From the NCBI GenBank assembly GCA_944381935.1, contig CALWMN010000021.1, forward strand, positions 1 through 42,144: DNA of 42,144 nt. The letters run 5' to 3'. Below the pieces are notes generated by a model that was not told where the DNA came from, searched no databases, and saw only the letters and a list, made by a program, of their open reading frames with translations. A program made the position numbers and the translations under genes. This DNA comes from an uncultured Mediterraneibacter sp. (GTDB lineage Bacteria > Bacillota > Clostridia > Lachnospirales > Lachnospiraceae). Below are positions 1 through 5,184 of the stretch, piece by piece; positions within the stretch are counted from its first letter, which is position 1; each line of letters begins with the position of its first letter.

Positions 1-1686
1 CATTATACTGAAATTCCACAGGATCATATTTTAGTGTATGAGGATGAAGGCTTTTCCGGCGGTAATCTCAACCGGCCGGACTTTAAAAAAATGATGGAAG
101 CTGCAAGGCAGCGTAAGTTCAAAGCGATCATTGTCTACCGCCTGGACCGAATCAGCCGGAATATCAGTGACTTTTCCAGCCTTATTGAAGAATTGTCAAG
201 ACTGGACATTGCTTTCATATCTATCCGAGAACAGTTTGATACCGGAACTCCCATGGGACGGGCCATGATGTATATAGCTTCTGTTTTTTCCCAGCTGGAG
301 CGTGAAACCATAGCCGAGCGTATCAGAGATAATATGCATGAACTGGCGAAAACCGGACGATGGCTTGGGGGAACAACTCCCACAGGATATGCCTCAGAAT
401 CGGTACAGAAAGTTACCATAGACGGGAAAGCAAAAAAGGCCTGCAAGCTGAAACTGATACCGGAAGAATCAGAAATTGTCCGTCTGATCTACAGCCTGTA
501 TATCGAACACGATTCTCTGACTTCTGTAGAAGCAGAATTAATAAAGCGGGGACTTAAAACAAAAAACAATAAACTCTTTACCCGTTTTTCAATCAAGTCT
601 ATCTTACAGAATCCGGTTTACATGATCGCGGATGTAAACGCATATAACTTTTTTGTAAAAGAGAACGCAGATCTTAATTCTGCCAAAGATGAATTCGACA
701 GCGTCCATGGCATGATGGTATATAACCGCACCAAACAGGAAAAAGGGAAAGCCGTCACCTATCTTCCGCCCGATGAATGGATTGTTGCGGTAGGTCTGCA
801 TCAGGGCATTGTTCCGGGCAAAGTCTGGATTTCTGTACAGGAGTCTCTGGATCGGAATAAAAGTAAGGCATACCGAAAGCCTCGGAATAACGAAGCACTC
901 CTGACCGGTCTTTTATACTGCACCTGCGGCAGCCGTATGTATCCGAAGATCAGCAAGCGAAAAACTGCTGACGGGAAGCCGATATACACTTATGTATGCA
1001 AATTAAAAGAGCGCAGCAAACGTTCAATGTGCAACAGTAAAAATGCCAATGGGAACACACTGGATCTGGCTGTGATCGAGCAGATCAAGCTGCTGGAAGA
1101 TGACAAAGGTTTCTTCATTGACCAGCTGGAACAAAGCCGGAAATTCTATACCGGCAACCGTGCAGCCTATGAAGATCAGCTGGCTTCTATCCGTCATGAG
1201 AAAGAAGAACTGGAAAAGAAAATTGAAGGTCTGGTTGATTCCCTGGCCGATTTGGGTGACAGCACGGTTAGGAATCAGGTGGCACGACGCATTGAACAGC
1301 TGAATCAGAAATGTGAGGAAACAGACACCCGGATCCATGAACTGGAAGCACTGACTTCCCAGCACACTTTCAGCGATATCGAATTTGACGTCATGCGGCA
1401 ACTGCTGTCCGTTTTCAAGACAAGCATAGATGAAATGACCGTAGAACAGAAACGTGCGGCGATCCGCACACTCGTCCGCAAAGTTGTATGGGACGGTGTC
1501 AACGCCCATATTATCCTCTTCGGGGTGCAGGATGATGAAATTGAATATCCGCCGCTTTCCTATCAAGCAAATGAAGCAGACAGCACAGAAGACGACTTAG
1601 AAGAGTTGGAACGGTTCAGTGATGTGGATTATGAAGATGAAATCGCTGACGGCTCAAAAACTCATTGGGGTGAGGATAGCAAATGA
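1..1686 (+). CDS. Large serine recombinase of a sigK-intervening (skin-like) element, 5' partial
   Basis: DNA-cutting recombinase expected to excise the element that splits sigK. The reading frame is open to base 1, so the N-terminus with the catalytic serine lies outside the window; GTG at 34 is internal. Visible are the rest of the resolvase domain (EDEGFSGG, LDRISRN, the GTPMGRAMMYIASVFSQLER stretch), a recombinase domain (about 360-900), a zinc ribbon (CTCG at about 922-933, then two more Cys near 1000-1032) and a long charged coiled coil (about 1090-1470), the usual order in large serine recombinases. Its TGA stop (1684-1686) lies inside the AATGA sequence where sigK resumes. Family and role as an integrase/excisionase are secure. 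The skin assignment rests on the sigK neighbour and is inference. Confidence 0.9.
   Translation, partial: HYTEIPQDHILVYEDEGFSGGNLNRPDFKKMMEAARQRKFKAIIVYRLDRISRNISDFSSLIEELSRLDIAFISIREQFDTGTPMGRAMMYIASVFSQLERETIAERIRDNMHELAKTGRWLGGTTPTGYASESVQKVTIDGKAKKACKLKLIPEESEIVRLIYSLYIEHDSLTSVEAELIKRGLKTKNNKLFTRFSIKSILQNPVYMIADVNAYNFFVKENADLNSAKDEFDSVHGMMVYNRTKQEKGKAVTYLPPDEWIVAVGLHQGIVPGKVWISVQESLDRNKSKAYRKPRNNEALLTGLLYCTCGSRMYPKISKRKTADGKPIYTYVCKLKERSKRSMCNSKNANGNTLDLAVIEQIKLLEDDKGFFIDQLEQSRKFYTGNRAAYEDQLASIRHEKEELEKKIEGLVDSLADLGDSTVRNQVARRIEQLNQKCEETDTRIHELEALTSQHTFSDIEFDVMRQLLSVFKTSIDEMTVEQKRAAIRTLVRKVVWDGVNAHIILFGVQDDEIEYPPLSYQANEADSTEDDLEELERFSDVDYEDEIADGSKTHWGEDSK
1682..1686 (+). other. Putative skin-element crossover core (AATGA) in sigK
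   Basis: AATGA sits where the recombinase gene ends and the sigK coding sequence resumes in frame (AAT GAA = Asn-Glu). The B. subtilis skin element recombines at AATGA at the same place in sigK, in the segment reading ENEILMH. Here the flanking codons read IANEVLMH. The partner half-site lies outside the window. Confidence 0.65.
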
Positions 1687-2035
1687 AGTGTTAATGCATT
1701 TCCGCTCCCGCAGAAAAGCGGGAAAAGAAATTTCTCTCTACGAGCCGATCGGCACTGACCGGGAAGGCAATGAGATTAAACTCTACGACATTATGGAAAA
1801 TGAAGGACTTGATGTTCCGGAAAAGATCTGCCTGAAAGAGAATATTCAGAAACTATATGAAAAAGTAGAAAGCGAGCTTTCCCAGAGAGAAAAGCTCGTC
1901 TTAAAAATGAGATATGGACTCTATAACGGGGAAGAGTATACACAGCGGGAAATTGCCAGACAGCTTGGAATTTCCCGCTCTTATGTCTCAAGAATCGAAA
2001 AGAGCGCAATCGAAAAGCTGCGCCCCTTCTTTTAA
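1682..2035 (+). CDS. sigK: RNA polymerase sigma-K factor, C-terminal half (spoIIIC-like), interrupted gene
   Basis: C-terminal half of the late mother-cell sporulation sigma factor. From the AATGA core the frame reads ANEVLMHFRSRRKAGKEISL, then an EPIGTDREGNEI-type stretch. This matches B. subtilis SigK after its skin insertion point (ENEILMHLRALKKTKKDVSL, DPIGQDKEGNEI). Region 4 follows, with the -35-binding helix-turn-helix TQREIARQLGISRSYVSRIE, ending KLRPFF. The frame runs back into the recombinase gene (ATG at 1619, GTG at 1670), but that part is out-of-phase recombinase sequence, not sigma factor. Regions 1-3 are absent from the window. The gene should be functional only after excision of the upstream element. 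Recognition of the family is firm; developmental rearrangement is inferred. Confidence 0.88.
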   Translation, partial: NEVLMHFRSRRKAGKEISLYEPIGTDREGNEIKLYDIMENEGLDVPEKICLKENIQKLYEKVESELSQREKLVLKMRYGLYNGEEYTQREIARQLGISRSYVSRIEKSAIEKLRPFF

Positions 2036-2871: not shown

Positions 2872-3195
2872 ATGAAAAGATTAAAGGAATTACGCATAGA
2901 AAAAGGACTCAGTCAACAGAAGCTCGCCAACCACCTGGGCATCAGTCAACAATCGGTGTACAAATACGAAAATAATATCGCGGAACCGGATATTTCCACT
3001 TTGAAAAATCTTGCAGATTTTTTTGAGACCTCCGTAGATTACCTTATTGAATATTCTGACATTCCTCAAAAATGCGTCCACTATACAGAGACAGATCTGG
3101 ATAAAGCTGAACTGGAACTGATCAGAAATTTCCGCAGGCTTTCCTCTTCAAAGCGCAGGATTATCAGTCAGTTAATCATAGAAATGCTAAAATGA
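2872..3195 (+). CDS. Xre-family helix-turn-helix transcriptional regulator
   Basis: DNA-binding protein of 107 aa. The N-terminal half is a Cro/C1-type domain: KELRIEKGLSQQKLANHLGI (about 4-23), then SQQSVYKYENNIAEPDISTL and LADFFETSVDYLIEYSD. The C-terminal 40 residues (about 65-107) are helical and charged, with LRRLSSSKRRIISQLI-like character, and probably mediate dimerisation. AAGGAGG stands just upstream of the ATG. It is divergently transcribed from two small membrane genes and closed by a strong hairpin terminator. Target unknown; autoregulation through the shared upstream gap is plausible. Confidence 0.85.
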   Translation: MKRLKELRIEKGLSQQKLANHLGISQQSVYKYENNIAEPDISTLKNLADFFETSVDYLIEYSDIPQKCVHYTETDLDKAELELIRNFRRLSSSKRRIISQLIIEMLK

Positions 3196-3260: not shown

Positions 3261-4496
3261 TCACGTTTCCGCAGGCTCTGCCCTTCTTAAGATATCATAT
3301 TGCTCCGGGCATACGCTAAGTTCCACAAAAAGCCCCTGTTTTGGGTGCGGGGCGCTCTCCTGCGCCTTTCCCTCTTCATTCATGATGCGTCTGACCCGGA
3401 CTTCCACATCGGTCCCATCCGGCTTCATAATCTCAATCGTCTCCCCCACTGAAAATTTGTTCCTCTGCTCAATCCGGCATATCCCGTTCTGGACATTTCC
3501 GACAATACCAAGATATGTGTACTCCTTGACGTAAGTATTACTGTCATAGATCTGGGCGTCATCGTCCGGCTTCCCGAAAAAGAATCCCGTCGTAAACTTC
3601 CGGTAGGTGCAGTTTGAGATCTGCTTGAGGTACCAGGGCATGTGTGCCCGGTAAAGCTCAGGATCCTCCCGGTAATCATCAATCGCCTTCCGGTAGGTCC
3701 GTGCCACGGTGGCTACATAGAGCGCCGTTTTCATGCGTCCCTCTATTTTGAAACTGTCGATCCCGGCATCAATCAGTTCAGGGATATATTCAATCATACA
3801 CAGATCTTTTGAATTGAAGATATATGTTCCTCTCTCATTTTCATACACAGGCATGTATTCTCCCGGCCTTGTCTCCTCCACCACGGCATATTTCCAGCGG
3901 CACGGATGCGTACACGCCCCCCTGTTGGCGTCCCTCCCCGTAAAATAATTACTCAAAAGACACCTCCCGGAATATGAAATGCACATGGCCCCGTGCACGA
4001 ATGTCTCAATCTCCAGATCATCCGGGATATTTTCCCTCAACTCTTTGATTTCTCTTAAGGAAAGCTCCCTGGCTGACACCACGCGGTTTGCTCCCTGCCG
4101 GTGCCAGAAATTATAGGTCCCGTAATTGGTGTTGTTCGCCTGGGTGCTGATATGGCGGTCAATCTTTGGGCAGACTTCCTTCGCAATGTCAAAGACTCCC
4201 GGATCGGCAATGATCAGGGCATCTGGCTTCATCTCTCTGAGTTCTTCAAAATATTCCCGCACTCCTTTAAGATCCTGGTTATGAGCAAGAATATTCGCCG
4301 TCACATAGACCTTCACGCCATGCTTATGGGCAAAATTTATCCCCTCCTGCATGTCTGCCAAAGAAAAATTCTTTGCCTTTGCCCGAAGCCCGAACGCCTC
4401 GCCTCCGATATATACCGCATCTGCGCCAAATATCACCGCGGTTTTCAGCACCTCAAGGCTGCTGGCAGGTATCAATAATTCAGGATGTCTGCTCAT
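3261..4496 (-). CDS. trhP: tRNA wobble-uridine hydroxylation protein, peptidase U32 family (TrhP2-like)
   Basis: U32-family protein that in B. subtilis (YrrN/YrrO, TrhP1/P2) hydroxylates tRNA uridine 34 to ho5U with prephenate as the source. The start is set at 4496 (MSRHPELLIPASS), because GAGAGGGG precedes that ATG and the family begins there; an upstream start at 4544 would add 16 atypical residues. The resulting 411 aa matches the longer paralogue. Signature features are YIGGEAFGLRAKA, HISTQANNTN and four cysteines (about 172, 179, 195, 199) that probably hold an Fe-S cluster, followed by a C-terminal beta domain. It overlaps the end of the trmR-like methyltransferase that would methylate its product, as in B. 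subtilis yrrM-yrrN-yrrO. A true protease role is unlikely. Confidence 0.85.
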   Translation of the reverse strand: MSRHPELLIPASSLEVLKTAVIFGADAVYIGGEAFGLRAKAKNFSLADMQEGINFAHKHGVKVYVTANILAHNQDLKGVREYFEELREMKPDALIIADPGVFDIAKEVCPKIDRHISTQANNTNYGTYNFWHRQGANRVVSARELSLREIKELRENIPDDLEIETFVHGAMCISYSGRCLLSNYFTGRDANRGACTHPCRWKYAVVEETRPGEYMPVYENERGTYIFNSKDLCMIEYIPELIDAGIDSFKIEGRMKTALYVATVARTYRKAIDDYREDPELYRAHMPWYLKQISNCTYRKFTTGFFFGKPDDDAQIYDSNTYVKEYTYLGIVGNVQNGICRIEQRNKFSVGETIEIMKPDGTDVEVRVRRIMNEEGKAQESAPHPKQGLFVELSVCPEQYDILRRAEPAET

Positions 4497-5184
4497 CACG
4501 TTTCCCCTCTCTGTGGTTCTGTTTTTCCCCGCTTTTCTTTCCATCGCATCTTACGCTTACTGCCACGCCGTCCCCAAGCGGAAGAATCGATGTGACAAGC
4601 TCTTTCCGATGCTTGATCTCGTAGAGGTACTCCCTCATCCTGGCGTGGATCGTGCGGTTGCGCCGTTCTACTGCAAATCTGGACTCTATCACGTCTCCGT
4701 CCTGCATCACATTGTCTGAGACAAGCACGCCTCCCGGCGTGAGAAGGCGCATTACATCCGGCAGATAATGGATGTACTGGCCCTTTGCAGCATCCATAAA
4801 AATAAAGTCATACGGGTCTGTCAGCGTTTTCAGGATCTTTGCTGCATCTCCTTCCACCAGGAAGATCCGGGACTCCCGCCCTGCCCGTCTGAAGTTTTCT
4901 CTCGCAAGGGGGATCCTTTTTTCATAGTTCTCAATTGTCGTAATCACGCATTCCTCCGGCGCATACTCGCTCATCAATAACGCAGAGAAACCTACGGCAG
5001 TCCCGACTTCCAGGATGCTCATAGGTTTTTGAATCATAAGAAGTACTTTGAGGAGGCTCTGCGTCTCCCGGCGTATGACCGGCACATCCGACGCGAGAGC
5101 CTCTTGCTCAATCTCTTCTAGTATTTCACTGTTCTCTGTATCCAAGGAATTGATGAAGGTAACGATACGTTCATCCACTATCAT
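4480..5184 (-). CDS. trmR: tRNA 5-hydroxyuridine methyltransferase (class I O-methyltransferase)
   Basis: SAM-dependent O-methyltransferase of the YrrM/TrmR group, which converts ho5U34 to mo5U34 in tRNA. The Rossmann motif ILEVGTAVGFSALL lies at about 57-70, and the metal-binding acidic motif IFMDAAKGQY and GGVLVSDNVMQDG follow. The length of 234 aa includes an unusually long polar tail (KKSGEKQNHREGKRDEQTS) that overlaps the trhP start. It sits between rnj and trhP with a 3-base gap to rnj. Related catechol O-methyltransferase-like enzymes share the fold; the neighbour trhP favours TrmR. Confidence 0.83.
   Translation of the reverse strand: MIVDERIVTFINSLDTENSEILEEIEQEALASDVPVIRRETQSLLKVLLMIQKPMSILEVGTAVGFSALLMSEYAPEECVITTIENYEKRIPLARENFRRAGRESRIFLVEGDAAKILKTLTDPYDFIFMDAAKGQYIHYLPDVMRLLTPGGVLVSDNVMQDGDVIESRFAVERRNRTIHARMREYLYEIKHRKELVTSILPLGDGVAVSVRCDGKKSGEKQNHREGKRDEQTS

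Follow-up and report, generated by a model that had tools for sequence, protein, structure and literature searches.

A skin-type element in sigK of Mediterraneibacter whose attachment site seems to lie inside its own recombinase gene

The sporulation gene sigK of an uncultured Mediterraneibacter sp. (Lachnospiraceae) is interrupted by a recombinase-bearing element, and attP seems to be situated within the recombinase gene that the element itself carries, because the joined frame runs through attP into helix-turn-helix (HTH) domains in all 16 elements examined. If so, insertion would split sigK and the integrase gene together. We consider it probable that this is an excisable skin-type element with attP inside its own recombinase-HTH gene and with the C-terminus of the recombinase serving as a switch. 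The splitting of sigK by an element is of a known kind; what is new is the self-splitting recombinase gene and, in the same genome, a split spoIIID. An initial annotation of this DNA had recognized the interrupted sigK and overlooked that the insertion apparently splits the recombinase gene itself.

The window, that is, the whole stretch of DNA analyzed (42,144 nucleotides), is contig C21 of the organism's own genome (G000), a 54-contig draft of 3.04 Mb with an estimated completeness of 99.88 %. The following features are needed for the argument:

1–1686, plus strand: large serine recombinase in its integrated short form, assigned by Pfam; the contig start removes its N-terminal residues, and its TGA stop codon occupies 1684–1686
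1674–1690, plus strand: attR, with the arm GGATAGC (1674–1680), the core AAAT (1681–1684) and the sigK continuation GAAGTG; compared with attL of contig C22 and with the junctions of relatives
1682–2035, plus strand: sigK 3′ half, reading N-E-V-L-M-H-F to its stop; assigned by SigK models, its C-terminal half aligning with the intact SigK of relatives
3261–4544, minus strand: U32 peptidase of the host flank, assigned by Pfam and by synteny with 8 of 30 intact loci of relatives

The frame behind the recombinase (1619–2035), previously read as the 3′ half of sigK, indeed fits SigK models from about residue 109 on (NF004471, E 2.6e-44; TIGR02846, E 2.3e-42) and showed no SigK N-terminal half in the same profile searches. 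The 5′ half is located at G000:C22:4401–4733, on the minus strand and directed towards the end of contig C22. Joined, the two halves give a protein that aligns over its full length with intact SigK from related genomes (90 % over 211 residues), so that the proposed interruption of sigK by a recombinase-bearing element holds. No full-length sigK was found in G000 (a 99.88 % complete draft), an intact copy elsewhere in the genome being what the initial annotation had named as counter-evidence. Contigs C21 and C22 most likely represent opposite sides of a single split sigK locus, since both carry flank genes of the intact locus of relatives: comM, a gene of C22, adjoins intact sigK in 29 of 30 such loci, and the U32 peptidase of the window lies on the other side in 8 of the 30 (within a 1.5-kb flank; absent there in 22). 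Two small genes (2119–2752) and an XRE-type regulator (2872–3195) are situated 3′ of the sigK 3′ half in the window; the former were found beside intact sigK in none of the 30 loci, and the latter has a weak match in one.

According to the SigK models and the junctions, sigK is split at conserved region 2 codons, as in skin-type elements. The halves stand in direct orientation and their joining restores the frame, which is read from single contigs in relatives and from contig orientation and flanks in G000. Two contigs of G000 together show about 6.1 kb of the element. A search of the assembly with the element interiors of two relatives (G049 and G005) did not reveal the middle; it matched the two known contig ends and gave short or weaker matches elsewhere.

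Comparison of the two junctions gives attL as GAAAATGCTATCC and attR as GGATAGCAAATGAAG, with AAATG as their common core, which replaces the AATGA core assumed earlier. The N-terminal half that had been expected upstream, ending at AATGA, does exist on C22, but the letters AATGA occur at the 3′ side only. With the arm set off, the sites read GAAAAT-GCTATCC (attL) and GGATAGC-AAATGAAG (attR), and joining the element ends yields a type I attP, GGATAGC-AAAT-GCTATCC, with perfect 7-bp arms, together with a restored attB, GAAAATGA, that encodes CIEN-E. Both sigK junctions are clean and the halves join in frame. A second recombinase family (in G019, G041, G023, and G026; 36–43 % identical to the recombinase of the window) defines type II elements, the attP of which reads GGGTTGC-AAAA-GCGACCC with one mismatch between the arms; here, the circle was joined at the 4-base core, the intact site having four A's.

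The recombinase frame (1–1686) contains Resolvase (2.2e-29), Recombinase (1.7e-19), and Zn ribbon (2e-10) domains, and full-length copies in relatives start upstream with a YSRKS motif. Its TGA stop codon is built from sigK letters and overlaps the first codons of the sigK 3′ frame. Host letters likewise make this stop in 14 of the 15 sigK-inserted elements with both ends known; in G251 and G033 (the latter represented by its 3′ end only), sigK has AAC and supplies no stop, and the recombinase is 39 and 13 residues longer, respectively. Joining the ends in silico leaves the recombinase frame open for 93–216 codons beyond attP in 16 of 16 elements (162 in L132); neither of the other two frames extends past 55 codons in the 15 elements counted (L132 is outside this count). 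These 16 are the elements with both ends known; their recombinases are down to 36–43 % identical to that of the window, and one of them, in G226, sits beside tRNA-Asn and not in sigK. As the 16 elements share ancestry, the common frame counts as one conserved trait and not as 16 independent events. Integrated recombinase copies comprise 563–637 residues; for the seven complete elements with an intact or almost intact HTH part, the predicted circle frame of recombinase plus HTH part comprises 768–843 residues. Judged by domain content, the split leaves the catalytic, recombinase, and Zn-ribbon domains of the enzyme together.

The stretch that is open beyond attP encodes two XRE helix-turn-helix domains. 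An AlphaFold model of this part has a mean pLDDT of 78, with low values for residues 1–60; among PDB structures, HTH repressors match it best (E 3e-3 and weaker). Among 22 type I copies, median dN/dS values are 0.06–0.07 for the HTH part and 0.45 for the linker, by which measure the HTH part is under purifying selection. Interruptions occur further along the HTH frame in G124, G251, and G226; in G049 the frame shifts close to its end, and that of L132 is shorter. We considered whether translation might pass from the sigK 5′ half into the HTH frame by programmed frameshifting but set this aside, since inspection by eye showed no classic slippery heptamer.

The ten complete sigK elements range from 4.1 kb (G251) to 27.0 kb. 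With a limit of 45 residues per open reading frame, three non-overlapping families recur in every one of the ten (recombinase, HTH part, and one small gene); the single family present in nine of the ten is encoded antisense to the recombinase. In the ten elements, the small gene encodes 55–74 residues and is located on the opposite strand behind the HTH part; it was found within 2.5 kb in 28 of 36 sources (a number that includes two loci counted twice, G005/L113 and G011/L114) and deeper inside in L129, L131, and L134. This conserved gene is the candidate excision factor. The small protein gave no Pfam or PHROG match of note, no PDB sequence match, and no PDB fold match at E 0.001. In type I elements the upstream region is conserved as ATAGCGGACAACTTCTC..TCATA(A/G)ACTGAAATA, with GGGAGG before a GTG start. 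Of 28 copies of the small gene, 23 have the box CATANANT/A no more than 60 bases upstream; the four type II copies tested do not have it, and L123 is cut off there. Similar boxes precede sigK in the twelve loci of relatives with the upstream region in view, namely CATAAACT, CATACACT, CATAGACT, and once CATAAAAT. Going by consensus sequences, the boxes before the small gene and sigK are putative sigmaE −10 boxes, and GGACAACT is a putative SpoIIID site. Upstream of the recombinase, TTTAC..TATAAT-like boxes were seen by eye in G005, G089, G279, and L132. The cargo of one sigK element additionally includes a gene for a 777-residue NB-ARC/STAND-like ATPase with TPR repeats (L014:1019–3352, minus strand), which has no PADLOC match.

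By hand count, full-length sigK is present in 47 of 58 genomes of the genus (own genome included among the 58), three of which have one in-frame TGA inside the match:

G012:C1:2104881–2105510: full-length sigK with one TGA
G048:C129:15246–15875: full-length sigK with one TGA
G017:C34:17661–18293: full-length sigK with one TGA

Nine of the remaining 11 genomes have both halves, G033 has the 3′ half only, and G036 the 5′ half only. G026, one of those with both halves, also has a partial intact sigK at a contig end that is 81–85 % identical to the split halves and probably foreign, and G053 has an intact sigK plus a 3′ half. A second sigK 3′ half in G011 (C206:369–746; L064) has no recombinase in front and two stops inside the match. 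Both halves occur on a single contig in direct orientation in G005, G019, G041, and G049 of the genus, and the same holds in further genera (G089, G279, G124, and G251).

The HTH part was matched at E 1e-6 in 12 of 397 genomes of the family. Five of these matches lie beside a sigK 5′ half (own genome, G089, G279, G124, and G251), those in G226 and G181 lie elsewhere, and the other five are weak, with no relative of the recombinase in the stretch analyzed. Scanning GTDB species for the HTH part returned at least 27 loci: 25 adjoin a sigK 5′ half by tblastn, L123 does so when its 53 bases are read by eye, and L112 lies elsewhere. Among the matches listed are records of Lachnospiraceae, Holdemania, Tyzzerella, and Oscillospiraceae. 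When G000 and G049 are compared, the DNA of the recombinase is 99.9 % identical and that of the HTH part 99.7 %, and the sigK halves are only 78.6 % and 76.1 % identical, which points to a recent transfer of the sigK element between species, into the same codon. Sites other than sigK were also observed for the HTH part, namely L112 (Ca. Lachnoclostridium avicola), a type II-like copy at G181:C176 (L099), and two near-identical viral contigs with type I copies (L138 and L139) that do not adjoin sigK. The related element of G226 (C148; L100) that lies beside tRNA-Asn is complete on one contig, has a recombinase 54 % identical to that of the window, and shows the same in-frame extension through attP, ending at TAG.

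We propose that the serine recombinase, together with a small directionality factor supplied by the mother cell, would recombine attL with attR, upon which the element would leave as a circle and sigK would be rejoined. In the free circle, the recombinase and a C-terminal double XRE-HTH extension would form one open reading frame; upon insertion into sigK, host letters would provide a stop right after attR and thus a shorter recombinase, and the HTH part would be stranded behind the sigK 5′ half, where it has no start codon common to all copies. The change of the C-terminus would then act as a switch of state: the short form and the small factor would lead to excision, and the long form in the circle might help the element to integrate into a new host, make re-insertion in the mother cell harder, or control its own promoter.

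Neither excision nor a circle, a joined sigK, or an unsplit fusion gene was seen in the sequences searched. The attP pattern occurs in none of the 58 genus genomes. Viral contigs yielded 17 stretches with the type I pattern and none with type II; no recombinase or HTH relative is encoded in any of the 17, nor is the pattern flanked by long frames on both sides in any of them (the frame of one covers 19 codons before the pattern and 255 after it). The HTH part had no match among phage and plasmid records, and a search of viral contigs for the type II HTH part covered 64 pattern stretches and gave no relative.

Several other explanations have to be weighed against the proposed switch. The element could be an ordinary skin-type one in which the HTH gene is a separate regulator, expressed from internal starts and the sigK promoter, and in which the in-phase junction at attP has no role. 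Internal start codons do exist inside the HTH part, some of them preceded by an SD-like site (GGAG/GAGG), so that separate translation is possible and could also account for the conservation of the HTH part in integrated copies; moreover, sigK transcription would reach the HTH part, as it lies directly behind the sigK 5′ half. We nevertheless regard this as rather unlikely, since no start codon is shared by all copies, type II copies by reading have no ATG before the HTH region, the conserved residues begin at W23 and thus upstream of the commonest ATG, and the phase of the frame is identical in 16 of 16 elements.

A decayed insertion that no longer excises, leaving sigK dead and sporulation incomplete, would fit the small size and damaged HTH part of some elements (such as the 4.1-kb element of G251) and the fact that spoIIID of G000 is split as well. 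It is quite improbable in view of the open recombinase frame of the window, which is 99.9 % identical to a copy in another species, of the clean junctions and in-frame join of both sigK halves, and of an intact spoIVA in G000. That the arrangement is an assembly or binning artefact, with a foreign 5′ half on C22 or a chimeric window end, is more improbable still: the halves do lie on different contigs in G000, and two relatives are mixed (G026, with its partial, probably foreign intact copy, and G053, with an intact sigK and a 3′ half), but eight genomes show the arrangement on single contigs (G005, G019, G041, G049, G089, G279, G124, and G251), the flanks of C22 and C21 match the intact locus, and the core sequences fit each other.

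The proposed self-splitting element shares features with several known systems. In B. subtilis, sigK is interrupted by the skin element (skinBs) at the same conserved codons, and the recombinase SpoIVCA is located beside the other sigK half. The present element has in common with skinBs the gene, a serine recombinase, and the interruption codons. The position of the recombinase beside the sigK 3′ half, which had been noted as a layout different from that of B. subtilis, is correct but not new, as it has already been published for C. difficile, where the recombinase CD1231 lies directly upstream of the sigK 3′ moiety of skinCd (PMC5025042). In both skinCd and the present element, sigK is interrupted, the recombinase is placed beside the 3′ half, and the att sites contain inverted repeats. 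A separate small factor is required for excision of skinCd, a place for which the small gene is the candidate here. According to the part of the skinCd report available to us, CD1231 is constitutive and the directionality factor CD1234 is under the control of sigmaE and SpoIIID (PMC5025042); the sigmaE-like box of the small gene and the TATAAT-like boxes of the recombinase resemble this regulation. The small gene showed no similarity to known factors in the Pfam, PHROG, and PDB searches. CD1231, with about 505 residues, is smaller than the recombinases described here (563–637), and the same part of the report mentions no in-frame HTH extension across attP (PMC5025042).

In the SSR-unit model, as outlined in the portion of the source at hand, int and rdf flank attP after excision, whereas here attP would lie inside the recombinase frame (PMC6957869). 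A review, in the excerpt available, describes integrases that disrupt their own gene as exclusively archaeal. The suicidal archaeal integrases of the SSV type likewise have attP inside the integrase gene, which is split by insertion; however, these are tyrosine recombinases that are inactive after the split, while the present enzyme is a serine recombinase that would lose only its C-terminal HTH extension (partial text of PMC8371274). Similarly, attP of mycobacteriophage BPs lies inside a gene of its immunity system, and insertion shortens the product and alters its activity, the shortened protein being a repressor there and a recombinase here (partial text of PMC4557955). Searches of the open-access literature, judged by titles and abstract starts, listed no serine or bacterial counterpart of a self-splitting integrase and no published sigK element from Lachnospiraceae. 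If the proposed reading is true, the archaeal self-splitting integrases would have a bacterial counterpart among serine recombinases, one that leaves a catalytically complete enzyme on the chromosome and offers a concrete system for studying how the C-terminus of an integrase sets direction.

A second sporulation gene of G000, spoIIID, is split by another element (C13:18082–23475; L076) of 5,145 bp, with a different serine recombinase beside the 3′ half:

G000:C13:23347–23475: spoIIID 5′ part
G000:C13:18082–18249: spoIIID 3′ part

The joined flanks of this element encode a full SpoIIID of 83 residues. Read by eye, the joined ends give AACCATA-CA-TATGGTT as attP; the junction again creates the stop codon of the recombinase (TAA), and the circle form would gain only about 14 residues. 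A hand count of spoIIID in the 58 genus genomes gave 39 full or nearly full genes, 11 with parts only, and 8 without a match. Recombinases 75–77 % identical to that of the spoIIID element adjoin spoIIID 3′ halves in G029 (complete, 13.8 kb), G001, G055, G039, and G020, those of the last two being fragments at contig ends. In five further genomes, an intact spoIIID is accompanied by an extra 3′ part a few kb away (G002:C12, G053:C26, G011:C168, G049:C25, and G056:C45), as if some elements inserted in spoIIID and brought a replacement 3′ end.

In the known sporulation programme, SpoIIID acts before sigmaK, and two ordered excisions may therefore be needed in G000. A wider reading, which we put forward tentatively and as something short of probable, is that of a self-editing bacterial serine integrase that would swap its C-terminus, and hence its direction or regulation, with each insertion and excision, cutting or mending sigK in the same step; in G000, this would extend to a cascade in which sigmaE leads to removal of the spoIIID element and the rejoined SpoIIID then helps to activate sigK and the excision gene of the sigK element, with sigK mended last. 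In gut Lachnospiraceae, the data suggest, DNA rearrangement during development is mobile and recent, and a single strain can be struck in both spoIIID and sigK, which are successive regulators. A species of this kind could be counted as devoid of sigK or spoIIID and yet may mend both when sporulating. Among split sporulation genes, the accessible part of one source names sigK, spoVFB/spoIVFB, spoVR, spsM, gerE, and kamA, without spoIIID (PMC6957869), and part of another adds yabG (PMC10747680); no published report of a split spoIIID was found, as judged by titles and abstract starts.

The spoIIID element also has a small gene; of the copies in G000, G029, and G055, only that of G000 has a clear sigmaE-like box before it, the other two showing CATAGG. 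We considered whether its product is related to the small protein of the sigK element and dropped this (hhalign probability 0.1). The cargo of the spoIIID element of G000 includes an AAA ATPase and its partner (L076:3865–5639, minus strand), a candidate defence pair matching PDC-M07A/B (E 6e-136 and 1.7e-50), beside which lie FUR-like and PTPS-like genes.
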